DNA of 64,000 nt from an uncultured Roseovarius sp. (lineage in GTDB: Bacteria > Pseudomonadota > Alphaproteobacteria > Rhodobacterales > Rhodobacteraceae). The stretch lies in contig OX638333.1 in assembly GCA_951812895.1 (NCBI GenBank), positions 1,726,366 to 1,790,365 on the forward strand. The letters run 5' to 3'. The notes beneath the pieces are model-generated. The model did no database searches. It was given only the letters and a program-made list of their open reading frames with translations, and was not told where the DNA came from. A program made the translations under genes and the position numbers. Shown here one piece after another: positions 6,182-48,246 of this stretch. Position 1 is the stretch's first letter, and every line of letters begins with the position of its first letter.

Positions 6182-7141
6182 ATGCGCAAAATCTACATTG
6201 CAGGTCATCGCGGTATGGTGGGTGGGGCCATCATGCGGCGGCTTGAACTGGTGCCGGATGTTGAGCTGATTACCCGGACACATGCAGAACTGGATCTTAC
6301 GGATCAGGGTGCAGTGCGCTCTTTCATGCAGGATATCAAACCCGATGGCGTCATTCTGGCCGCTGCACGGGTGGGCGGTATTCAGGCCAACAACACATAT
6401 CCCGCAGACTTCATTTACGAAAACCTGATGATCGAATGCAATGTGATCCATCAGGCCTTTGCCGCCGGAGTTCAAAACCTGCTTCAGCTGGGTTCGAGCT
6501 GTATTTACCCAAGGGCCGTGCCCCAGCCGATGCGCGAAGATGCGTTACTGACCGGTGTGCTGGAGCCTACAAATGAACCCTACGCGGTGGCCAAAATCGC
6601 CGGCATCAAGCTGTGTGAAAGCTATAACCGGCAGCACGGAACTGATTACCGCAGCGTCATGCCAACCAACCTTTATGGACCCGGCGATAATTTTCACCCG
6701 GAAAATTCCCATGTGTTACCCGCACTTATCCGACGGTTTCACGAGGCGAAAGAAACAGGCCAGCAAGAGGTTGTGATTTGGGGCACCGGGAAACCCCGCC
6801 GCGAATTCCTGCACGTGGACGACATGGCAGAGGCGTCTTTGTTCGTGCTGGATTTACCAAAGGGCGATTATGACGCCAACACTGATCCGATGCTGAGCCA
6901 TATCAACGTCGGCAGCGGAACGGATATTTCAATATTGGAACTGGCGCAGAAAGTGGCCGGTATCGTAGGCTTCAAAGGCAAGATTTCCAATGATACCACC
7001 AAGCCTGACGGAACGATGCGCAAACTGATGGATGTTTCGCGACTTGCGCGGATGGGCTGGCAGGCAAGGATCGAGTTAGACGATGGATTAGCCGAAACCT
7101 ACCAATGGTTTCTGGCCAATCAGGAAAACTTTCGCGGTTGA
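6182..7141 (+). CDS. fcl: GDP-L-fucose synthase (GDP-4-keto-6-deoxy-mannose 3,5-epimerase/4-reductase)
   Basis: Takes the Gmd product through epimerisation at C3 and C5 and reduction at C4 to GDP-L-fucose, with NADPH. The cofactor motif GHRGMVG is at residues 8-14, the GSSCIYP active-site block at 104-110 with the family's cysteine at 107, and Y134-x3-K138. [19 protein letters not shown] is a hallmark of the family. Full length (319 aa). It ends the manC-gmd-fcl set and is convergent with hslU. Confidence 0.95.
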
Positions 7142-7227
7142 ACCTGAACGTAGAGTTTTTGTGCAATGTGCCAAAATGTACGCAGGTTTTTTTCAAACCT
7201 GACAACAGCAAAACAGAATTGATTAAG

Positions 7228-8535
7228 TCACAAAACGTAGCGTGACAGGTCCGCTGACTTCATCAACTCACCCAGATTGTCCTCGACAAATTTTGCGTCA
7301 ATAGTGATCTCATCTCCGGACCGGTCGGGCGCGGTAAAGGACAGCTCTTCGAACACCCGTTCCATCACGGTATAAAGCCGCCGGGCGCCAATATTTTCAA
7401 CCGATTGATTCACCTGAGCCGCAATATGCGCCAGAGCCGCGATTCCGTCATCCGTAAACGTCACGCTCACCTCTTCCGTCCCCATGAGTGCGGAATACTG
7501 ACGGGTCAGGGCATTGTCGGTCTCCGTCAGAATGCGAACGAAATCCTCTTCCGTCAGGGCGCGCAGCTCAACCCGAATTGGAAGCCGCCCCTGAAGTTCC
7601 GGCAACAGGTCGGAGGGCTTGGCGATGTGAAATGCACCCGAGGCTATGAACAGGATGTGATCTGTTTTCACCGGCCCATGTTTGGTGGACACAGTTGTGC
7701 CCTCGATCAAAGGCAGCAGATCGCGTTGCACGCCTTCGCGGCTGACATCGCCACCGCGGGCTTCGGAACGGGCACAGACCTTGTCAATCTCGTCCAGAAA
7801 AACGATGCCGTTTTGCTCAACCGCATCCAATGCCGCCTTGTTCACTGTTTCATCATCGAGCAGCTTGTCAGCTTCCTCGCCCAACAAAATCTCATAGCTT
7901 TCGGCGACGGTCATTTTGCGACGCACTGTGCGGCCGCCGAAGGCTTTGCCAAACATATCCCCAAGGTTCATCATGCCCATCTGGCCACCGGGCTGGCCGG
8001 GGATGTCCATCATGCCGAGCGGATTGGAATTATCTGCCAGGTCCAGCTCGATCATCGTATCATCCAGCAAGCCGTCTTTGAGCTTTTTGCGGAACATGTC
8101 GCGGGTACCTTCGCGGGCATCTTCGCCTGCAATGGCTTCGATGACGCGATCCTCGGCGTTTTGGCGGGCATTTGCGCGTACATCGTCACGCATCCATTCT
8201 CGGGTCTGGGCAATCGCAGAATCGACCAGATCGCGCACGATCTGTTCAACATCACGACCTACATAGCCCACCTCGGTAAACTTTGTCGCCTCGACCTTGA
8301 TAAACGGTGCACGGGCCAGCTTGGCCAGCCTTCGGGAAATCTCAGTCTTGCCCACACCAGTGGGCCCGATCATCAGGATATTCTTCGGATAAACCTCATC
8401 ACGGATGTCATCGGGCAGCTGTTTGCGCCGCCAGCGATTGCGCAGGGCAACAGCCGTTGCCCGTTTTGCATCGCTTTGACCGATAATGAAACGATCCAGC
8501 TCGGACACAATTTCGCGCGGAGTGAGGTCGGTCAT
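7228..8535 (-). CDS. hslU: ATP-dependent protease HslUV, ATPase subunit HslU
   Basis: AAA+ unfoldase that feeds substrates to the HslV peptidase in the cytoplasm. Walker A GPTGVGKT is at residues 57-64 and Walker B ends in FLDEIDK; a variable I-domain lies between them with Gly/Met-rich stretches. The C-terminus LSRYVL matches the tail that inserts into HslV and activates it. Length (435 aa) is normal. hslV is on the same strand at 9150-9707, so the pair is not adjacent: a convergently oriented DM13 gene lies between them. Confidence 0.97.
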
Positions 8536-9149: not shown

Positions 9150-9707
9150 TCAGCTTTTGATTTTTTCGACCGTCAGATTGCCATTGGTATAAACGCAAAT
9201 GTCCGCAGCAATCGCCATTGCGTCGCGCGCCACCTGTTCTGCAGATTTATCACCATCCATCATACCGCGCGCGGCAGCGAGGGCAAAGTTTCCACCGGAC
9301 CCGATAGCTGTCACATCGTGCTCAGGCTCTAGAACATCACCGGCACCGGTAATGACATACAGCTCCTGCCCGTCGGAAACGATCAACATCGCCTCTAACT
9401 TTTGCAGATACTTGTCAGTGCGCCAGTCTTTGGCCAGTTCCACGCTGGCACGCTGAAGCTGCCCGGGTGTTGCCTCAAGCTTGGATTCGAGACGTTCCAG
9501 AAGTGTAAAGGCATCTGCCGTAGAGCCCGCAAAGCCCACAAGAACATCATAACCACCAGGCGAGATGCGCCGCACTTTGCGCGCTGTGCCCTTGATCACA
9601 GTCTGGCCAAGGCTCACCTGCCCGTCGCCCGCGATGACCACTTCACCACCTTTTTTTACGCCGATGATCGTAGTGCCGTGCCAGCCGGGGAATCCATTCT
9701 TTGCCAT
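9150..9707 (-). CDS. hslV: ATP-dependent protease HslUV, peptidase subunit HslV
   Basis: Proteasome-like threonine peptidase. After a short propeptide the mature chain should begin at T12 ([12 protein letters not shown]), giving the N-terminal nucleophile. The blocks [12 protein letters not shown] and [16 protein letters not shown] are typical. Full length (185 aa). It acts with HslU, which lies ~0.6 kb downstream on the same strand beyond the DM13 gene. Confidence 0.96.
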
Positions 9708-9771
9708 GCCGTGCTCCTGTTGCTTGCGCTGTCTATATGGATTTTTGCCCGGGTCTGCGCAAGGGCCACGA

Positions 9772-9794
9772 AAAAGGGCGCTCTTAGGCGCCCG
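9772..9794 (-). terminator. Terminator after trxA
   Basis: On the minus strand a GGGCGC/GCGCCC 6-bp stem with a 6-base loop is followed by five T. It lies between the trxA stop and the hslV start, so the two genes are separate transcripts. Confidence 0.75.
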
Positions 9795-9819
9795 ATTTCA
9801 AACGTCATATTGCAAAGAC

Positions 9820-10140
9820 TCAGATTGATTCTTCGATCCAGCTTTGCAGCGCGGCCTTGGGCGCAGCGCCGGCGCGGTTCGAGATGACTTCGCCATCTTT
9901 AAAGATGAACAGCGCCGGGATGCCACGGATGCCCATGGCAGCGGCAGAATTGGGATTGGAATCCACGTCAACCTTGGCAATTTTCACGCGGTCGCCCATT
10001 TCGGCCGAAATCTCTTCGAGCGCGGGGCCAATCTGTTTACAGGGGCCACACCACTCGGCCCAGAAATCCACCACAACGGGGATATCGGAATTTTTCACTT
10101 CGGTGTCGAAGGTATCGTCGGTGACGGCAACAGTGGCCAT
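9820..10140 (-). CDS. trxA: Thioredoxin
   Basis: Cytoplasmic dithiol reductant of the classic 106-residue size. Active site WCGPC at residues 30-34, followed by the buried-helix region and the cis-proline in GIRGIPALF. It follows addA by 60 bases on the same strand, an arrangement common in Rhodobacteraceae. Confidence 0.97.
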
Positions 10141-10200
10141 TTTGGTTCTCCCAGAGAGGTCAGGTTCGGGATCGCAACGTATGTAGCCCAGGGCGGGGCG

Positions 10201-13200
10201 TCAAGGTATATAGGTGCGCTTTAGGGCGTTGGTTACAATATCGTGTGGTAACATCATAAGAGTTGCGGTGCGGGTCCACAGCAATGCGGCCTGAATTTCA
10301 CGATCGGGATAGAGTGTGGAAAGCGCGTGGGAATAGGCCCCCATCTGACGCAACAACCCATCGGGACAGTCGGCGGGTGTGTCCGGAACGGCGGCGTTTG
10401 TTTTGAAATCGACAGCCAGAACCCGTTCGTGGTTAATGACCAACCGGTCGATTGTACCATGGACCCGCTGCCCGCCCAAAGCTTCAACAGGCGCTGAAAC
10501 GGACACCTCGGCCAAAGCATCCGGCGTAAAAAGTGGTGCAAGCGTTGCACGGGTCAGAACCTTATCCGTCTCGGCCAATAGCAGGGCCAGCTCTTGTCCG
10601 GTGGCTGCATCCGGCCCTTGACCAAGAAGGCGGGCGGCGGATTCCGGCCAATCAGCGCGATTGTATTGTGGCAGAAATTCCAGCAATCGGTGAATTTGGC
10701 GTCCACGGCGGAGTGCGGCATCTTCATCCAGACCCTCTTCACCGGGCAAAGCCTTGGCGCCACCGAGGTCTGATGGCCGCAGTGTTGCAGTTGTTGGTCC
10801 CACTGCAGGCGCAGGCGATAGGTAAAGCTCTGGAATGGACACTGTATCAGCCTGAACTGGCGCTTCTGCCTCGATCGGCAAACCGTTCCAACCTCCTTTT
10901 TCCAGCCTTAGCCCGACACCCCCATCGAAACTGTGATCAGCAGCATTAGATCGGACTAATCCATCGTGGATCATGTTGTACCAACTTTCTCCACCTTTGC
11001 CCGGATCGCCTGCACAGGCAACGATCAGCCATTTTTCTGCGCGGGTCATTGCGACATATAAAAGCCTGTCACGTTCTGCCTGAGCCTCCGCCTTGGCCTC
11101 TTGGTCAAGCGCTTCCAATGCGCGGGGCGTTTCATCCTTGTTTGTGCGCCAAAGAACGGTGTCAGAGGAAACGGCCAACGGATCACGCAAGACGAGCGGG
11201 CGCTTTGCGGTGTCAGGCAGGATGACAATGGGCGCCTCCAACCCCTTGGCACCATGAACGGTCATGACACGGATCAGGTTGCCGGCGCTGTCGATCTGAC
11301 GCTTGATTTCCAGCGCATCGGTTTCCATCCACACCAGAAATCCGGTCAGGCTGTCGATGGCATTGCGCTCATAACTCATCGCCTGCGCTAAAAAGGCGTC
11401 GATACCATCTTCGGCCTCTGGCCCAAGACGCGCGAGCAATGCGTCACGGCCATTGTGGCGGGTTAGAATTCGTTCAATCAGATCATAAGGCCGCAGAAAA
11501 TCTGCCTGATCGCGCAGGTCCCGCAAGATAGCGAAGGTATCGGGAAATTCTTCCGCTCGGTCGCGCAGCTCTGCCCAGAGGTATTTCTGTTTTCGGCCAT
11601 GCGCCAAACCAAACAGATCACCTTCGGACCAGCTAAAAAGAGGGGAGCGCAATGCGGTGGCCAAGGACAAGCTGTCTTCGGGCGTGGCCAGGAATGACAA
11701 AAGCGCGGCAAGATCACGAACTGCAATTTCCGCTCCAACGCGAAGCCGGTCGGCGCCAGCGACGGGCAGGTCAAGCCGTTTACATTCGCGGATGATCTCG
11801 TGAAAGAGATGTGACCGCCGCTGAACCAGAATGAGAAAATCACCGGCTTGAATAGCGTGGGCGTTTTCGCCGGATTCATCCGGGAGCGGTTGGCCCAGCA
11901 TCTGTTTGATTGTCGTCGCAATCTGCCGTGCCAGGATCGTCGAGGGATCATTTGCCGTTTTGATGTCTACAGGACGAAACCACTCGGGATCATCCTCAGA
12001 TGTTGGCTTTTCAACAATTGGCCAAAGATCAACACGACCGGGCATGTCCGTGTAAAAAGCATTGTGACCCTGTTCCGCAGAGAATCCGCTTTGTTCCCGA
12101 TTGGCAAAGGTTTGATCCACCAATGACAAGATGGCTGAAGATGAGCGGAAAGAGTGCGTCATCTCCAGGTCCTGAAGCGGGCGATCCGCTTCGGTAAGCC
12201 GGTTGGCGAAATCCTGTTTCATCCGGTCGAATTCGCGTGGATCGGCACCCTGAAACGAATAGATCGATTGCTTTTTGTCACCCACCACAAAAATCGTGCG
12301 CAGAATATCCGGGCGGGCGCCTTCACCGCTGGTGAATTCCTGGGCCAATTTTTCAATTACCTGCCATTGTGCCGGGCTGGTGTCCTGCGCTTCGTCCACG
12401 AGGATGTGATCAATCCCACCATCCAGCCGGTATAGCACCCAAGCCGCAACTGCGGGATCAGTCAGCAGATCACGGGCACGCAGGATCAGGTCGTCAAAAT
12501 CAAGCCAGCCGCGCAGTTGTTTGGCCTCTTCATATGCAGGCAGAAAAACAGACGCGAATTCGTGAAGAGCACTGGTTTTTCGCATGGCTGAAAGTGCAAT
12601 GCGAGCCTCTCTCGCCAATTCAACTCGTTTCATCCATGCCTCGATCTCAGGCATATGAGCGCTAAGGTTTTTCTGGCTCGCTTTCGATGGGAATGAGCCT
12701 ATTTTGGCTGAAAATGGCTCTTTTGCGCCCGCTTGAGTCAGGAACACGGATTCGAGTAGCGGGAGTGTTTTAATATCCAGACTTGATATTCCAGCCAGCT
12801 TGGCCGCCGCGCGTTGGTCTTGAACCCCTCCCATGTTCAAAACCGGGATCAATGACTTAATTAGATCGGTTTCTCGGCCCACGAAGGCCATTGAGAAAAT
12901 CGCAGTCTCATCCAAATCCTGAGATTGTCCATAAAGAGCGGCAATTTGAGCTGCATCAGGCCGCCCGGCAAAGACGGGACCGTGACGCACAATCGCGGCG
13001 GTCAATTCTTCGAGGGCTTCGCCGGTGTAATGTCGTACAAGCGCATAAAGGCATTCTGCTTTGGGGCCGCTGGCGATCTGTTCGACAATTTCCGTCCGTA
13101 GCAACGCTGCTGCACGTTCTTCCATTTCTGAAAACTGTGGTGTGATCCCGGCCTCTAACGGAAAGCGGCGCAACAGCGCGCTGCAAAAGGAATGGATCGT

Positions 13201-28400: not shown

Positions 28401-29135
28401 ATGAAAGTATTGAACTTGGGATGTGGCATCAAAACAAGCGACAAGCCCAATGTTGTTAACATCGATTGGTCTCCGTATCTTCGTGTGTCCAAAAGCCGAG
28501 TCGGAAGTTTTTTGGCCCCCTTGGTCCTTGACAAGAGTAGGCTCAAAAGGTTCCGCTCAATCCCCCAAAATATTATGGTGGCAAATTTGGCGAAAGGGAT
28601 CCCCTTTGGAGATGAAACGGTAGATGTCGTTTATCACTCTCATGTTCTTGAGCATCTCGACCGACCTGTTGCTCTAGCATTTTTGAAGGAGGCGTTCCGC
28701 GTTTTGAAACCAGGCGGGATCATTCGAATCGTTGTACCAGATATAGAAATGTTGACTCGAGCTTACTTGGATCATCTAGAACTATGCAAAAAGGAGCCTT
28801 CTGCGATACTAAATCATGAGGATTATCTTGCACCGATGATTGAACAATGCGTGCGCCGGGAAGCAGATGGTACCGCCCATCAAACGGGAATGCGCAGATA
28901 TGTGGAAAATAGATTGTTAGGTGACGCTCGCCAAAGAGGAGAAACTCACCAATGGATGTATGATCGTTTCATACTTCAGGCTGCTCTTCAAAGGGCAGGA
29001 TATCGAGATACACAAGTATGCCGGTTTGACGAAAGCTGGGTCGAAGGTTGGAATGGTTACGGTTTAGATTTGAATGAAGACGGCAGCCAATACAAAAAAG
29101 ATTCTCTCTATATGGAGGGGAGAAAAGGCGAATGA
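28401..29135 (+). CDS. Class I SAM-dependent methyltransferase
   Basis: About 244 residues. KVLNLGCGIKTSD opens the chain and VVYHSHVLEHLDRPVALAFL with LKPGGIIRIVVPDIE follows; the H-x-L-E-H block and PGG turn are typical of glycan-cluster methyltransferases with compact ends. The ATG at 28401 lies seven bases after AAAGG; the TTG five codons earlier is rejected. The next gene starts 10 bases after the stop. The acceptor is unknown. Confidence 0.8.
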   Translation: MKVLNLGCGIKTSDKPNVVNIDWSPYLRVSKSRVGSFLAPLVLDKSRLKRFRSIPQNIMVANLAKGIPFGDETVDVVYHSHVLEHLDRPVALAFLKEAFRVLKPGGIIRIVVPDIEMLTRAYLDHLELCKKEPSAILNHEDYLAPMIEQCVRREADGTAHQTGMRRYVENRLLGDARQRGETHQWMYDRFILQAALQRAGYRDTQVCRFDESWVEGWNGYGLDLNEDGSQYKKDSLYMEGRKGE

Positions 29136-29145
29136 GGGATTCGGA

Positions 29146-30078
29146 ATGAAAATCCTGATTGTTGGAGATCCGAACGGTCGCGATGACGAGGGGATGAAAC
29201 GGGTCAACAGCCATCTTAGATCAGAGCTCATCGCACTCGGACATCATTGTACCATCGACAATGGTCTGTCCTTGAAGGCCAATTGGGCGTCCTGGGACAA
29301 GATAGTGTTTACTGCGGGACCGACCCAAAACACGTTGCACAAAATTGCGGCCATGAGAATTATTCATCAGAGATCAGAAATCATTCTTACCGGGTTGATG
29401 CCTAGTATAACGGCCAAACGCAGTTTTGTACTCAGACGAAGCGTTGACAGGATTGTGTCCGAAAATCCTCAGATGCTGGCAATCGCTAAACTCAATGATG
29501 TTCCAGTCGTGCAGCAAGCAGCAGCTACATTTTCATTTCAAAAATTCGTGCGCGATCGTGATCGAACCAAACCGAAACGCGCCGAAGGACCACTTCGGGT
29601 ATTGCATGTGGGACACCTAAACGAAAAACGCAATGTAAATGAGCTCGCCACGCTTTGCAGGAAATTAGGCTACTCGATCACATTTCTGGTAAGCAGTACA
29701 GTAAAGGAAGAACTCGAGGAACGTCGACGCTTGGAGGCTCTGGGCGCAGAAATCATCTCAGAATATCAAGAAGATTTGTATGAGTTCTACAGGAAATTTG
29801 ATCTTTATGCCTTTCCTGTGAAACGTTCTGACGCAGCCATTGCGATGCCGCTCAGTATTATTGAAGCTCTGTTGTCAGGATTGAATGTCCTGACAACAGA
29901 CTTCGGAGAAGTATCGGCAAACTTTGGATATTCTTCGTGCGTACATATCACCAATGCCCTCGACAAAGTAACGGCGGCCCAACTTGAAGACCTTGCAAAT
30001 CGCCCAGTGATGAAAATCGAAGAACTCCGAAAATATGATACCAGACAACTTGCCCAAATAATCACCGGTCGGCCATGA
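29146..30078 (+). CDS. Glycosyltransferase, GT-B fold (GT4-like)
   Basis: About 310 residues from the ATG at 29146 (MKILIVGDPNG). N-terminal Rossmann half with a GRDDEGMKR loop; the C-terminal half has VLHVGHLNEKRN, EDLYEFYRKFDLYAFP and AIAMPLSIIEALLSGLNVLTTDFGE, the E-x7-E-type nucleotide-sugar site. It transfers a sugar to a growing lipid-linked repeat unit, donor unknown. It overlaps the next gene by four bases, so the two are coupled. Confidence 0.8.
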   Translation: MKILIVGDPNGRDDEGMKRVNSHLRSELIALGHHCTIDNGLSLKANWASWDKIVFTAGPTQNTLHKIAAMRIIHQRSEIILTGLMPSITAKRSFVLRRSVDRIVSENPQMLAIAKLNDVPVVQQAAATFSFQKFVRDRDRTKPKRAEGPLRVLHVGHLNEKRNVNELATLCRKLGYSITFLVSSTVKEELEERRRLEALGAEIISEYQEDLYEFYRKFDLYAFPVKRSDAAIAMPLSIIEALLSGLNVLTTDFGEVSANFGYSSCVHITNALDKVTAAQLEDLANRPVMKIEELRKYDTRQLAQIITGRP

Positions 30079-30680
30079 TTGTTACAATCAACGGTGTTGA
30101 CGGCAGTGGTAAGAGCACAATCCTAGAAGCAATTCGCGAATCTACGAAAGTTGAATTGTGCCATTACCATTCGCGACCCGGGCTCGTAATTCCGAAGAAC
30201 AACGCTAAAAAATACAACAAATACGTCGACCGACCAAATGAAGTTCCAAAACGTAGGCGCCACATGCAACTGGCAAAATTGGCATTGTTTTTATTCGAAT
30301 TTCAGCTCTTGGCGATTTGGCACAGGATTACATTTCAGCAAAAATTGGTGATCCTAGAGAGAAGTTTAATTGATCTATATGTCCATCCAGCACGATACGG
30401 TTTGGAATCTGGGCTCGTAGAGAGAACCCAGACGTTGTTGATGGAATGGTATGTAGATTTGAATATTTGTTTGACGGGTGATCCGCGGACAATTGCAGAT
30501 CGGAAACAGGAACTTGATGAACCTGAAATTTCTGACCTAAATAATCGATATCTGGAGATTCTTTGTCGTTCAAAAGAGAAACTGCTGGTCATTGACACGA
30601 CGACAGAGTCCGTTGCTCATGCCGCCGAAAGGATGAATGAGCGGTTGCGAAAAATGTCGAATGGGCGAGTTGTTAGATGA
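30075..30680 (+). CDS. P-loop kinase of the thymidylate-kinase-like type
   Basis: 201 residues. Walker A GVDGSGKST at residues 7-15, a Lys/Arg-rich insert (residues 45-65), LVILERSLIDLY where thymidylate kinases have the D-R-Y/S block, and a lid-like DPRTIADRKQELDEPE. The fold is that of dTMP/nucleoside kinases but the nucleotide-binding region is unlike housekeeping Tmk, and the setting is a polysaccharide locus. It may phosphorylate a sugar, lipid or chain end; function unknown. Coupled to the glycosyltransferase upstream (4-base overlap) and followed by a nucleotidyltransferase-fold protein. Confidence 0.7.
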   Translation: MIVTINGVDGSGKSTILEAIRESTKVELCHYHSRPGLVIPKNNAKKYNKYVDRPNEVPKRRRHMQLAKLALFLFEFQLLAIWHRITFQQKLVILERSLIDLYVHPARYGLESGLVERTQTLLMEWYVDLNICLTGDPRTIADRKQELDEPEISDLNNRYLEILCRSKEKLLVIDTTTESVAHAAERMNERLRKMSNGRVVR

Positions 30681-30759
30681 GTAACACATCTCGACTCATT
30701 ACAGGAATTGCCTGAATTGGATGGTGATTTAGTGGTTTCAGAAACGTTTTGGATGTGAC

Positions 30760-31644
30760 ATGACGCCAAACAGATTTTTGCAAAAACATGTTCACGATCT
30801 GCATGGGCTGCAGGTAGATTATGCCTTTCTCAGGAATTCTCAAGGTTATCCTGAAATCCTGACCGGTGATATCGACTTACTGGTAAAAATCACAGATTTG
30901 AATGAAGTCTACCAATACTACAAAAAGCTGCGCCGTGAAGAGATTCGTGTAGTCCAAATTATCAAAAGGCGTCGCGACCTTTATGTAATGCTATTTTTTC
31001 CGCAGGGTGGAGAGCGGAAATTTCTTGTGCTTGAGTATTACACGGGCATTGTCTTTCGGGGGCAGGTGGTCGTTCCAGGCGAACGATTCCTTAAAACCTG
31101 CGACGTTGATGGTGTCTGGAGACGGCTTTCGGATAGCGTGTCAATTTCCTACACTTTTTTTCACTATATTCTCTACAAAGGTTACCTTCCCTCGAAATAT
31201 CAAGAGGCATTCAACAAGCATACATTGGATGTGGGCATCATTGCCGAAGTTTTTTCCTTTATTGATGTTGCCCCAGATTCCGCTGAATCAAAATTAGTGT
31301 TAAAATCACCTGCCATCCTGCGAAGCCGCATCCTGAAGAAAATTTCCAGGATTGGGACGATTTTCAGCTATGCTAGGCAGTTTGCGGGGTTACGTCGAGA
31401 AGGCCTCGGCTGTGCGTTAAAGGTTAATCCCGCTGATACACAGGCGGTGATGGAGTTCGCTGATAAGTTTCACTTGTATCGTCCAGCGCATCGATATGTG
31501 GTAAAAAGTAACCGGTTTTTCTCGGCGCTCACGGCCTTTTTGATCTATATTCTAGGTGGGTTGGCGGTTCTACCAGATCCCAAGATAGTCAGGCGCGGCT
31601 CTGCTGAATTATACTTCGAGGAGAAAGTGGCCAGCTTGGGCTGA
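30760..31644 (+). CDS. Nucleotidyltransferase-fold protein (minimal GDxD), function unknown
   Basis: 294 residues. Near the N-terminus YAFLRNSQGYPEILTGDIDLLVK has the G-D-x-D of nucleotidyltransferases (G36, D37, D39), with an upstream YAFLR strand. The middle carries a RKFLVLEYYTGIVFRG stretch that could supply the third acidic residue. The C-terminal part is helical with a hydrophobic patch near residues 250-270. A kinase gene lies just upstream. A role in adding or removing a nucleotide or phospho group on the glycan is inference only. Confidence 0.6.
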   Translation: MTPNRFLQKHVHDLHGLQVDYAFLRNSQGYPEILTGDIDLLVKITDLNEVYQYYKKLRREEIRVVQIIKRRRDLYVMLFFPQGGERKFLVLEYYTGIVFRGQVVVPGERFLKTCDVDGVWRRLSDSVSISYTFFHYILYKGYLPSKYQEAFNKHTLDVGIIAEVFSFIDVAPDSAESKLVLKSPAILRSRILKKISRIGTIFSYARQFAGLRREGLGCALKVNPADTQAVMEFADKFHLYRPAHRYVVKSNRFFSALTAFLIYILGGLAVLPDPKIVRRGSAELYFEEKVASLG

Positions 31645-31660
31645 TCGAAACTCTACAATT

Positions 31661-32896
31661 ATGAACTCCAACAAGAAAATGACCACAGCCGCAGCGCTCG
31701 GTTGGATCGGGCGAAAACTACGTCTCAATCTCGTGCTGCGTGCTGATCCAGCGATATTGGACTCTGCACTGGCAAGTGCAATGAATCTGTTGTCGGTACT
31801 TGCAATTGGTGCAATCTACGGCGTTTCGACTCTTGGTGAGTTCTCTCTTGTTCTGATCTATTCGTCCTTAGTCTACCTTTTTGCGTACAATTTCATCATA
31901 ATCCCGGCGACAAGCGCTTCTTGGTCGATTTGCAAAGTCGAGTTTGCACAAAAAGTCTTAGTGATATCGGTGATTACGTTTACGCCCCTAACTCTGATGT
32001 TGTTGGCGGTCGATGAGTTTGTATTAAAATTCTCAGAACAAAACGTTTTTTTAACGTTCTTTTACATCGTTTCACATAACGCGTTCTTGACCTTGCGACG
32101 AATCGTACTTCACCTACGAATGTCGCGATACCCGACGCTGATTCCGCTTCTCTCTCTTAGTTTGATAACTTTGTTTTCTTGGCTGGAAATCTTTTCTTAT
32201 CAATGGTTTGTTCTGAGTTATTCTCTGTCCTTTGTCGTAATGATGGCGACCACGGTACTTGGGAAGTCAGCGCACGGTCTAATGTTAGATATCGCGCTTG
32301 CCATTCAGTTCTTGAAATTTTCAAGATGGATGGCTTTTGGTATTTGGTTTCAATGGTTGTCAGGAAATTTGGTGCAGCTATTTGTTCAGTACCATAATGG
32401 AACAGCGGCTTTGGGCGAACTGAGAATCTTGCTGTCGTCTTTTGGATTTTTGAGCTTCTATTTTCAATACCAAGAGATTGTGCTTGCAAGAGAGTACGGC
32501 AGTGAACCCAATCCTCGTTTTAGTTTGGCTTCTGTATTTGAGTTACGTAGGTATTTAGTACCAAGCCTGCTAATTCTCTTATGTCTGCCAATATACGCTA
32601 CTTACTCATTTGTCGTTGGTACGCCTTCATTTCTGGGTCCAGCACTTTTGTATGCGGTGTATCAGTTTTTTGTATTGGTTTCGATAATCATGCGAGTCTA
32701 CCTGCGTCTCATGAATGACATGCTATATTCATCCATCGGATACTTCACGATGGTCTTGGTTTTGCTTATGGCGGATTTCATTTATGTGGGCCCATTTCAG
32801 ATGAAAACTGCGGCATTCTTGTATTTTGTAAGTATTATCGCGATGGTATTTACACTTGCACTTGGTCTGACTCGCGTTTCGAAAAGGCAGATTTAG
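31661..32896 (+). CDS. Wzx-like polysaccharide flippase (MOP superfamily)
   Basis: 411 residues, almost all hydrophobic, with about 11-12 predicted membrane helices starting near residue 36 and few charged loops. Size, helix count and position just before a Wzy-like gene fit a Wzx translocase moving undecaprenyl-linked repeat units across the inner membrane. Wzx proteins conserve little sequence, so the call rests on topology and neighbours. The next gene begins four bases after the stop. Confidence 0.7.
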   Translation: MNSNKKMTTAAALGWIGRKLRLNLVLRADPAILDSALASAMNLLSVLAIGAIYGVSTLGEFSLVLIYSSLVYLFAYNFIIIPATSASWSICKVEFAQKVLVISVITFTPLTLMLLAVDEFVLKFSEQNVFLTFFYIVSHNAFLTLRRIVLHLRMSRYPTLIPLLSLSLITLFSWLEIFSYQWFVLSYSLSFVVMMATTVLGKSAHGLMLDIALAIQFLKFSRWMAFGIWFQWLSGNLVQLFVQYHNGTAALGELRILLSSFGFLSFYFQYQEIVLAREYGSEPNPRFSLASVFELRRYLVPSLLILLCLPIYATYSFVVGTPSFLGPALLYAVYQFFVLVSIIMRVYLRLMNDMLYSSIGYFTMVLVLLMADFIYVGPFQMKTAAFLYFVSIIAMVFTLALGLTRVSKRQI

Positions 32897-32899
32897 GCA

Positions 32900-34033
32900 A
32901 TGCGTCTAGAATTACAACACGCCGTAATTTTGTTCTTTGCAATGGTTTTTGTCGACTTTCTTGTTTTTGTGTTCAGTGGAGGTGAAAGCTATTATTCTGT
33001 GGGAGGTTTCGCTACTACCGGTTTTCTGGTGGTTCCCGCAGCTATGTACCTTTTGGCTTGTTTTGTATTTGCCTCTTCGACGCTACGCTTGATCGATAAG
33101 ACGTACGTGCCAAAACACACAACAACGGACAGACTGCTACCTTGGGTCTTGGTAATTATAGTGGTTTTGCTGGTGACCGGGGTTTCTGGGGAAGCCTTTT
33201 TTTCTATTGACGCACTAAGTCGTCAGGTGTTGTTCCAAGAAAATCAATGGATTCCGATGATTGTTTTGTTTACGCTGCCCATGGCCATGATGGCTGTTAT
33301 CTGCGCCACTTCTTGGACCCGGCTCATAATGTTTGTTTTCCTGGTAAGCTTTTTTTCCCTGACCGGTAGCCGAATTCATGTCATGGCGCTTATTGTAGCC
33401 CTTGTCGCAGCTCATTCAGACCGCAAGGTTAAATTGAGACATCTCATTTTCGTGGGCGTGTTAGGTATTTTTATTCTCGATTTCCTGGCTACTCTGCGGG
33501 AATCCGCGATGCAAAAAAATGATATTGGGGCGGGTCTAATTCAAATGTTTTCGACGGGGCACTATGCGACCTTTGACATTCAGACCTTGCTAATGCATCC
33601 AGATGAATCGTTAGCTTTGAGTCCTTGGTACGTGCTGATCGCATTGATCGGACCGCTTCGACAAGTTTTGGGATTGCAGTGGGTCCTGTCTTCGTCAGAG
33701 TATTTTACGGCAACAATGGATCCCGGGCGATATTATAGCAGTTTCAGCGCAGCGACGGTTGGTCTGAGCGGGGAATTGTACATGATTGTAGGCTGGTTTG
33801 GCGCCATCCTGATAGGTGTATTCACCGGGTTGGTCGCACTGCTAAAACGTTTTCTTGAATGGTTGTCTAATTTCAATCAGCAAATGCAGGTACTGCTGAG
33901 ATCCTTGGGTTTTTTGTATTTGTTTCTATTGCTGCGCTCTGATATGTGGATTTTTTTCGTCTATTTGTGGATTCAGTTACCCGTGTTAACCATCTTAGCT
34001 TTGTATTTCGCTAAAGCCAGGTCACGGCGCTAG
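32900..34033 (+). CDS. Wzy-like polysaccharide polymerase
   Basis: 377 residues with about 10-11 membrane helices and one larger loop near residues 225-295 (LLMHPDESLALSPWY, YYSSFSAATVGLSGELYM), as in O-antigen/EPS polymerases. It would join repeat units on the periplasmic face. SRIHVMALIVALVAAHSDRK precedes a helix, a common Wzy layout. The call rests on topology and on lying directly after the Wzx-like gene. Confidence 0.68.
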   Translation: MRLELQHAVILFFAMVFVDFLVFVFSGGESYYSVGGFATTGFLVVPAAMYLLACFVFASSTLRLIDKTYVPKHTTTDRLLPWVLVIIVVLLVTGVSGEAFFSIDALSRQVLFQENQWIPMIVLFTLPMAMMAVICATSWTRLIMFVFLVSFFSLTGSRIHVMALIVALVAAHSDRKVKLRHLIFVGVLGIFILDFLATLRESAMQKNDIGAGLIQMFSTGHYATFDIQTLLMHPDESLALSPWYVLIALIGPLRQVLGLQWVLSSSEYFTATMDPGRYYSSFSAATVGLSGELYMIVGWFGAILIGVFTGLVALLKRFLEWLSNFNQQMQVLLRSLGFLYLFLLLRSDMWIFFVYLWIQLPVLTILALYFAKARSRR

Positions 34034-46626: not shown

Positions 46627-48246
46627 TCAATTGAAGATAACAGCGAGTTCATTTTTGAATGTTGAAAATAGAGAGCCTGAGCGAACTTGGCTCTTTTCTG
46701 AGGGCGCATCTAGCAATGAATTGTCATAGTGATTTCTAATCCAATTGGGATCAAAGCCCATCAAGAAGAGTATGGTGGGAAAGATTTGAAAATGTGAGAA
46801 GCCGTTTCTATGTTTCAACGCGTGCTCCCTAAACAACATTTCTATCTTAAGATTTTCCGATACTAGAATTAGCGGAACCAGGCCTTCTCCGACATCAACA
46901 TCAAATAAATTGCAATGCGGACTACGCTTTCGATCACGGTCAAAGCGTTGACCATGATCTGAAGTATAGATTATGACTGAGTTGTTGAACTGAGCGTTCG
47001 CGAAAAGCATCTGAAAAAAGCGGTCGACTGACCATCGCAAAGCTTGTGTGTACACACTAGGTAACTCCAAGCTACTCGAAGAAGCTTTGTAGAAACTTTT
47101 CTTTTCAAAGTCGTAGCTGAACTGAGAAGGAAAAGTGGATTCGTACGGTATATGGGTTCCAAATTTGTTTACCAAAATGAAAGTCGGTTTTTCGGACTTC
47201 AGAAGTTCTTTGATACGGCTAGCAAAAGTGTGATCTCGATGCATTGCACTCTGGTCTGCAGCCGTAATTACTTCATCAATTTGAGAAAATTCAACCTCGT
47301 TCATGTAGCTGTGCAGTCCAACTTCTGGAATCCAAGCATCAAACAAAACGGTTCTGTATCCAGCCAATTGTGCAAACTGCCAGATCGTTGGGTTTTTTAG
47401 AGATCTTTGAGCTAAGTCGGGCACTTGGTCCATTCGCAATCCAGAACGCAAAATTATCCGACTTTGTTTGGAGCAATTCCAGGCGGAGGTCGCCACGCCA
47501 AAGTTGATTAGCTTTTCACCAACGCCGCTGAGAAAGGGCGTAGTGTCCGTGGGACCACCATTAATACTTAAGGAGTCCCCACGGACACTTTCATCTACAA
47601 TCAGAACAATATGCTTGATTCTAGGTGAGATCTCATTTTCATAGTCGACGGATTCTCTGGGACCGTCGTACAAATCATCAGTTACAGCTTTGAAAATCTT
47701 AGCCCAGCTAGAATAAAATGATGGTAATGCTAAGTTTCTGTTTTCAGAATAGAATGAAACAGAAAAAACTAGGATTGTAGCGATTATTGGAACTATCACT
47801 AAAAAATTTCGTGACTTTGGTTCCAACTTTGAAGGCATACATAGTATCGTTGCAAACAAAAGGGCATTTAGCCCGAATGTGACTATCGCACCAGGGTAAT
47901 AGATTACTACTTGACCGACCAATGACAAGTTTTTGAACATGAGGCGTGCTGTTTCAAAGGTGAGTGTGGAACCTAGAAAGCTTCGAGCTGTAGTATCAAC
48001 TGCGTAACCTGCTATTAAGAACAAAACAACAGGGCCGCGCAACCATAGGGAATGCAGAGTTAGAGCGACAAAAAATCCGATCCAAGCTAATAAAAAGACT
48101 ACGAAATATATAAATGCATAGTGAAAGTTTCCAGTAGAAAACCAGAAATTTACACCATCTGCGAGTTTTGTTAAGTCTTTAGGAAGTAGTGAAAATAAGA
48201 GATAAAGAATTCCTGCAGCTTTGATGCTACTCGGTATCCAATTCAT
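46627..48246 (-). CDS. EptA/sulfatase-superfamily membrane transferase (phosphoethanolamine transferase-like)
   Basis: 539 residues. Four or five membrane helices occupy residues ~5-165, then a periplasmic alkaline-phosphatase-fold domain: HIVLIVDESVRGDSLS (metal ligand near E219), TSDHGQRFDRDRKRS and a late L-x-H-C-N block. The nucleophile region reads ATSAWNCSKQSRIILR near 252-267, unlike the G-T-x-T-A of EptA, so the acceptor residue (T253, S254 or C258) is uncertain. It probably transfers a phospho-alcohol headgroup to a surface glycan or lipid A. Head-on to the polysaccharide genes and next to the Wza-like gene. Confidence 0.78.
   Translation of the reverse strand: MNWIPSSIKAAGILYLLFSLLPKDLTKLADGVNFWFSTGNFHYAFIYFVVFLLAWIGFFVALTLHSLWLRGPVVLFLIAGYAVDTTARSFLGSTLTFETARLMFKNLSLVGQVVIYYPGAIVTFGLNALLFATILCMPSKLEPKSRNFLVIVPIIATILVFSVSFYSENRNLALPSFYSSWAKIFKAVTDDLYDGPRESVDYENEISPRIKHIVLIVDESVRGDSLSINGGPTDTTPFLSGVGEKLINFGVATSAWNCSKQSRIILRSGLRMDQVPDLAQRSLKNPTIWQFAQLAGYRTVLFDAWIPEVGLHSYMNEVEFSQIDEVITAADQSAMHRDHTFASRIKELLKSEKPTFILVNKFGTHIPYESTFPSQFSYDFEKKSFYKASSSSLELPSVYTQALRWSVDRFFQMLFANAQFNNSVIIYTSDHGQRFDRDRKRSPHCNLFDVDVGEGLVPLILVSENLKIEMLFREHALKHRNGFSHFQIFPTILFLMGFDPNWIRNHYDNSLLDAPSEKSQVRSGSLFSTFKNELAVIFN

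Follow-up and report, generated by a model that had tools for sequence, protein, structure and literature searches.

The window, by which we mean the whole 64,000-nucleotide stretch of DNA from the uncultured Roseovarius sp. analysed here, carries a polysaccharide locus in which the pair and its immediate neighbours lie on the forward strand. A glycosyltransferase gene (29074..30078), the product of which matched Pfam Glyco_trans_1_4 (group 1) at 33.7 bits against a cut-off of 27, is followed by a gene for a 201-aa TMK-like P-loop kinase (30075..30680). The ATG of the kinase gene overlaps the glycosyltransferase stop by 4 nt, in agreement with the initial annotation, which regarded the two genes as coupled. 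After a 79-nt gap comes a gene for a 294-aa NTase-like protein with a GDxD motif (30760..31644; hereafter the GDxD protein); both this ORF and that of the kinase are intact and lie at the coordinates given initially. Farther downstream, 31661..32896 and 32900..34033 each encode a polytopic membrane protein in which 9 hydrophobic segments were counted. The former had no match in Pfam or NCBIfam at E<=1 and the latter matched DUF6040 weakly, and we infer that they are Wzx-like and Wzy-like, respectively. The window also carries a ManC-like gene and an epimerase gene, and three methyltransferase genes were found in the same polysaccharide locus. The GC content is 0.435-0.472 at 28-44 kb as against 0.49-0.60 over most of the remaining window, as in an acquired polysaccharide locus. 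Nothing in the window matched Rfam at gathering scores.

The kinase possesses the P-loop GVDGSGKST (residues 7-15; 30093..30119). Two further segments were recognised by alignment to the kinases that we call type II (see below), namely ERS (residues 95-97; 30357..30365), which is aligned to the DR(Y/F/H/W) of most type-II kinases, and DRKQEL (residues 142-147; 30498..30515), which matches their prevalent RK.EL. The closest PDB sequence in a single-sequence search was a thymidylate kinase (E 0.19), and the fold is predicted to be TMK-like because a profile made from ten related kinases matched many thymidylate kinases among PDB sequences. Nevertheless, by profile the window kinase does not look like a housekeeping dTMP kinase. 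It is a TMK-fold P-loop kinase like bacterial Tmk, but lies far under the family cut-off (23.6 bits with TIGR00041, cut-off 83.25; 21.9 bits with Pfam Thymidylate_kin, cut-off 27), and the genome holds a separate and better Tmk candidate, which scored 145.7 bits with phrog_761 versus 44.9 bits for the window kinase. A type-II kinase profile, constructed from 9 related kinases with the window kinase left out, gave the latter 75.9 bits (E 9.8e-22) among 4605 ORFs, and housekeeping Tmks (best 30 loci) reached at most 46.3 bits. A tree computed from 57 kinases placed that of the window with type II at a support of 94/88, which is below the program's mark for a firm branch, and separated 10 Tmks with support of 100/99; the smallest well-supported set containing the window kinase includes these 10 Tmks too. 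Its branch in the tree is long, and the row most similar to it is a Tmk, at 23% identity.

The GDxD protein yielded no match in Pfam, NCBIfam or PHROGs (each at E<=1), the Pfam search giving none to LicD (PF04991) either, and no match among PDB sequences at E<=10. Its motif GDIDLLV (residues 36-42, with D37 and D39; 30865..30885) was identified in the sequence and in alignment. The motif alone was ruled out as a marker of NTases, as the pattern GD[ILVMA]D[ILVMA]2 occurred in 17 of 1696 ORFs of >=150 aa, a set that includes family members. The standing of the protein above chance comes from a type-II NTase profile, which was built from 8 NTase-like domains fused to, or located near, such kinases elsewhere, the window protein being left out. 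This profile matched the window protein weakly, at 17.6 bits (E 6.7e-4; 4605 ORFs, filters off). The other ORFs at E<=0.01 were family members, their fragments or a retrieved copy of the gene in the window, the best outsider was an antisense ORF (E 0.34 among the 4605 ORFs), and none of the 780 ORFs in 30 Tmk loci and an E. coli stretch was matched. Thus, the nucleotidyltransferase core proposed in the initial annotation gains a weak profile match in addition to its GDIDLLV segment, although the GDxD motif from which it had been read is weak evidence by itself.

The alignment with the type-II relatives extends over residues 7-152, and the two Asp residues corresponding to D37 and D39 are invariant in it. 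As for the third acidic residue of the fold, an acidic residue does stand at the aligned place, but it is Glu (E92, in LVLEYYTG, residues 89-96; 31024..31047), whereas Asp is found in 7 of 8 relatives; in L084, an Asp lies close to this column, by eye only. An AF2 model of the window protein, computed with 14 N-terminal domains, was poor (mean pLDDT 49.3; pTM 0.42). It begins with a helix at 3-16, a strand at 21-23, the GDxD strand at 37-43 and a helix at 44-60, and continues with strands at 63-70, 73-79 and 88-95, the last of which bears E92. This order of elements would be that expected of an NTase core, but the model is too poor to serve as proof. With profile A8 (six NTase-like domains, the window protein included), two PDB sequences were detected at E<=10, both nucleotidyltransferases (E 0.033 and 0.33). 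One of six NTase-like members matched NTP_transf_5 in Pfam (E 0.0025), and there were unspecific matches for others. In a tree of NTase-like domains, the place of the window protein was unsettled. By the profile match, the GDxD protein is a remote relative of the domain fused to type-II kinases, the relationship being weak but specific.

Single-sequence searches did not lead to relatives. With either window protein, no match was found past its own genome in 100 relatives each, and no true relative among 295 family genomes, where a match in G330 (E 0.0097) was ruled out because it falls in an unrelated ORF. Likewise, nothing beyond the own genome was found for the kinase in 292 order genomes (E<=1e-6) or for the GDxD protein in 385 class genomes and a scan of genome contigs, and no relatives were detected in plasmids and viral contigs (both proteins) or phages (kinase). 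Relatives were reached through profiles. phrog_761 retrieved second TMK-like genes in family genomes, one of which (L040), located in a polysaccharide locus, encodes a fusion of a TMK-like kinase with an N-terminal GDxD domain. Further fusions of this kind, here called type I, came from one Chelatococcus plasmid and, three in number, from phylum genomes, 4 of 299 of which matched, two of these with kinases only. Judging from the record titles of the matches listed, type-I fusions occur in Alphaproteobacteria, Gammaproteobacteria, Acidobacteria, Anaerolineales, Gemmatimonadetes and Paceibacterota. An alignment scan of genome contigs gave at least 24 loci, more type-I fusions among them, and led to L081 (Omnitrophota), a distinct fusion, type II, that resembles the window proteins by eye. 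With L081 as a query, 10 plasmid records were matched, 8 of which were examined, and nothing was found in phages or viral contigs. Of 335 family genomes searched with profile A6, which was built from six type-II fusions, 4 had a match at E<=1e-8, namely the window's own (the kinase at 68.5 bits, E 9.6e-19), G377 (a fusion), G156 and G268. L036, L039 and L041 were rejected as carriers of the pair after their loci had been inspected; L039 contains a 451-aa ORF (6535-7890) with two consecutive TMK-like regions in a non-polysaccharide neighbourhood. We also rejected a conserved membrane segment joining the two domains, as hydropathy shows no conservation, and did not count single-sequence links to the type-I profile, which were too weak (E 0.0012 among 44 sequences, residues 7-51 only).

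To count the pairing, we took the retrieved loci outside the window in which a type-II kinase scored E<=1e-15. They number 12 (L075, L081-L089, L096 and L097, with L083 and L089 closely related) and, being products of the searches, are no random sample. An NTase-like domain is present in 8 of the 12, fused in seven (L081, L082, L083, L084 with a short N-domain, L087, L089 and L097) and split in one, and absent in four (L075, L085, L086 and L088). The tally is positive by construction, in that all 8 positive loci seeded the type-II NTase profile; the NTase-like domains of L081 and L089 are also matched by the independent type-I profile. A count of 8/13 would be equally fair, if G268 (L046/L093), which scored E 2.8e-10 with A6, under the cut, and had no NTase match, were included. 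Thus, recurrence of the kinase together with an NTase-like protein, for which a survey of other loci had been suggested, was indeed observed, and at the sequence level the contrary outcomes named in the initial annotation were not encountered. The plasmid fusions come from Agrobacterium leguminum, Legionella adelaidensis (where the N-domain is short) and two plasmids of Leisingera. Type-II kinases free of an NTase-like domain were found on a Streptomyces plasmid and on two haloarchaeal plasmids, from Halomarina and Haladaptatus (L086 and L088), where they are outside polysaccharide loci.

Type-II fusions, annotated as ‘hypothetical protein’ (e.g., WP_304984087.1 of Agrobacterium leguminum and WP_164982826.1 of Leisingera), share with the window pair the same two domains by profile as well as the polysaccharide-locus setting. 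They differ in being fused with the NTase-like domain first; in the window, the two are separate genes with the kinase in front, and they have diverged very far. The split pair of L096, in G156 of the window's own family, comprises a kinase (9163-9771), a polytopic protein (9768-10961), an NTase-like protein (10965-11663) and then a second polytopic protein. It resembles the window in having the kinase upstream, the NTase-like gene downstream and polytopic proteins alongside, but a polytopic gene intervenes between the pair and an APH-like gene (6257-7228) lies near; neither the APH-like nor the NTase-like protein of L096 had a Pfam match at E<=0.001. On the Leisingera plasmids (L083 7299-14739; L089 7299-14393), the fusion lies upstream of genes for a glycosyltransferase, rfbC, rfbB, rfbD and rfbA. 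These plasmids may correspond to roseobacter biofilm plasmids with a rhamnose operon.

An APH-like gene or domain is common, albeit not universal, beside type-II kinases. It was found in 8 of the 12 loci, a count that is partly circular, as seven of the eight are seeds of the APH profile and L097 alone is independent. Five APH-like neighbours carry the outside annotation ‘phosphotransferase’, and the Leisingera protein is narrowly over the Pfam APH cut-off (23.8 versus 23.2 bits). On a Hymenobacter plasmid (L087 4171-6642), a single 823-aa ORF combines APH-like, NTase-like and TMK-like parts; its APH-like N-terminal part was recognised by motif and by our own profile, and Pfam shows no APH in it. 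We failed to find an APH-like gene among the ORFs of the window, either with the APH profile (E<=0.01) or with the motif pattern.

For the type-I sister family, 28 loci from several phyla, some with short flanks, were examined. These fusions likewise combine NTase-like and TMK-like domains, and many are in polysaccharide loci. They differ from the window pair in that the third acidic position is mostly His, by eye, and nucleotidyl transfer is thus no safe assumption. An APH-like gene was found in 3 of the 28 loci (two of Mesorhizobium and one of a close relative; one is a seed). A second P-loop protein is encoded near the fusion in 18 of 28, eight of which seeded its profile; it is often directly downstream, as in L049 (10463-11230) and L051 (2999-3796), and in L080 a single ORF consists of a type-I-like kinase followed by another P-loop domain. 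With the type-I kinase profile, YghR, YghS and YghT of E. coli K-12 reached 119-147 bits, and in the kinase tree they lie nearer to type I. Their genes (L098 11342-14824) are annotated as putative ATP-binding and adjoin yghQ, a putative transport protein gene; no NTase-like domain was found in the yghRST stretch by profile search.

Altogether, the two window genes appear to be the split version of an NTase-like/TMK-like enzyme of two domains that occurs in polysaccharide loci. Judged from the predicted proteins, common ancestry with the fused forms is shown strongly for the kinase and in a weak but specific manner for the NTase-like protein, and the comparisons also show the pairing to be repeated and the setting among glycosyltransferase and flippase-/polymerase-like genes to recur. 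The two are very probably a real functional pair, and we have nearly as much confidence that the pair has a role in the glycan of the window locus. As to what that role is, we tentatively favour a LicD-like, phosphate-linked decoration of the repeat unit, a proposal made by analogy and still open to considerable doubt. Instead of dTMP, the kinase would phosphorylate a small acceptor or a glycan. The NTase-like protein would then form a phosphodiester with the kinase product or its activated form, so that a single substrate would be handled by both proteins in turn, at the stage of the repeat unit. By LicD-/FKRP-like chemistry, the lipid-linked repeat unit would receive a phosphate-linked substituent ahead of its flipping; elsewhere, the pair is often accompanied by an APH-like kinase, and none was found in the window. 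Decoration is favoured because members of the LicD family, which belongs to the NTase superfamily and occurs in capsule synthesis, carry out such chemistry, CpsC being a polyol-phosphate polymerase of this family (PMC11666461). The window protein is like the LicD/fukutin family in the proposed chemistry only, and differs in having no sequence match to it. We count against this reading the missing LicD match, the gaps in the pairing (4/12, two of them outside polysaccharide loci), the Glu as third acid, the failure to find an APH-like gene in the window, the weak NTase match with its unsettled tree place and poor model, the kinase-tree set shared with the Tmks, and the type-I domains, mostly devoid of the third acid.

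It is attractive to speculate, with the same reserve, on a widespread and as yet undescribed phospho-glycan system that acts on lipid-bound Wzx/Wzy repeat units. In it, a kinase derived from TMK and a nucleotidyltransferase of the Pol beta-like type, either fused or split and in many cases joined by an APH-like kinase, would phosphorylate the repeat units and then nucleotidylate or phosphodiester-link them, with yghRST of E. coli as one branch of the kinase family.

Alternatively, and rather less plausibly, the pair may synthesise a donor. X-phosphate would be made by the kinase, alone or together with the APH-like kinase, and NDP-X by the NTase-like protein, for use by a glycosyltransferase of the locus, X being an unusual sugar or polyol. 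Routes to activated donors usually run from a kinase to a nucleotidyltransferase, an APH-like gene accompanies two-thirds of the counted type-II kinases (8/12), and the two acidic residues plus Glu are retained in the window protein, all of which would suit this alternative. Nevertheless, known sugar-1-phosphate nucleotidyltransferases are mostly of a different fold, the window already has the ManC-like gene and the epimerase, and we know of no TMK-fold kinase that acts on free sugars. It is also unlikely, though only slightly more so, that the NTase-like protein is non-catalytic and merely binds a substrate or partner, leaving the chemistry to the kinase. The His usual at the third acidic position in type-I fusions, the Glu at this position in the window and the four type-II kinases that occur without an NTase-like domain would be understandable in that case, but the invariance of two Asp in type II and the retention of the third in 7 of 8 relatives argue against it.

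That the kinase is a nucleotide monophosphate kinase, supplying or recycling nucleotides for the locus, is improbable: its TMK-like fold by profile would permit such a function, but the genome holds the better Tmk candidate, profile scores separate the window kinase from Tmks, and it recurs with the NTase-like domain. The initial annotation had offered, as an example, a capping step that would fix polymer length through modification of the chain end by the pair. We regard this idea as very improbable, even though the kinase gene adjoins a glycosyltransferase gene and three methyltransferase genes are in the locus, since kinase/methyltransferase caps are known from ABC-exported polymers, while the next two genes here read as Wzx-/Wzy-like and the relatives lie near flippase and polymerase genes. 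Least credible is a chance neighbourhood of two proteins with separate functions, to which the 79-nt gap, the weak NTase match and the 4/12 kinases without an NTase-like domain might point, given that fusions occur in seven loci and a split pair in one more outside the window.

The folds and general chemistry discussed for the favoured phosphate-linked decoration are already known; what appears to be new is the module of polysaccharide loci in its fused, split and triple-fused forms, of which no description was found in the literature searched, a body that covered few subscription journals. A separate, recurrent enzyme module may stand behind the labels ‘thymidylate kinase’ and ‘hypothetical’ given to proteins of polysaccharide loci, and if it adds phosphate-linked groups, part of glycan chemistry is missed by present annotation. 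The fused, split and triple-fused forms allow a direct test of whether the parts act sequentially on one substrate, and related kinases without an assigned role, yghR, yghS and yghT, are present in E. coli K-12, an organism whose genes are readily deleted.

Two further observations concern the surroundings of the pair. A sulfatase-family protein (87.8 bits) is encoded on the minus strand at 46627-48246, in the same polysaccharide locus and ~43.2-kb unit as the pair. Phosphoethanolamine transferases are members of the sulfatase family, and the gene would fit a phosphate-bearing glycan, albeit it is no proof of one. The ~43.2-kb unit, with the entire polysaccharide locus, is present twice in tandem (contig positions 1752125-1839949; 25760-64000 in the window), the copies being 99.997% identical over the 38.2 kb compared. 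This may reflect two copies of an integrated plasmid, or else an assembly error. The unit carries a Rep3 gene and a rep/parAB region resembling those of Leisingera and Phaeobacter plasmids, and beyond the tandem units the ahcY stretch occurs a third time (99.3%).
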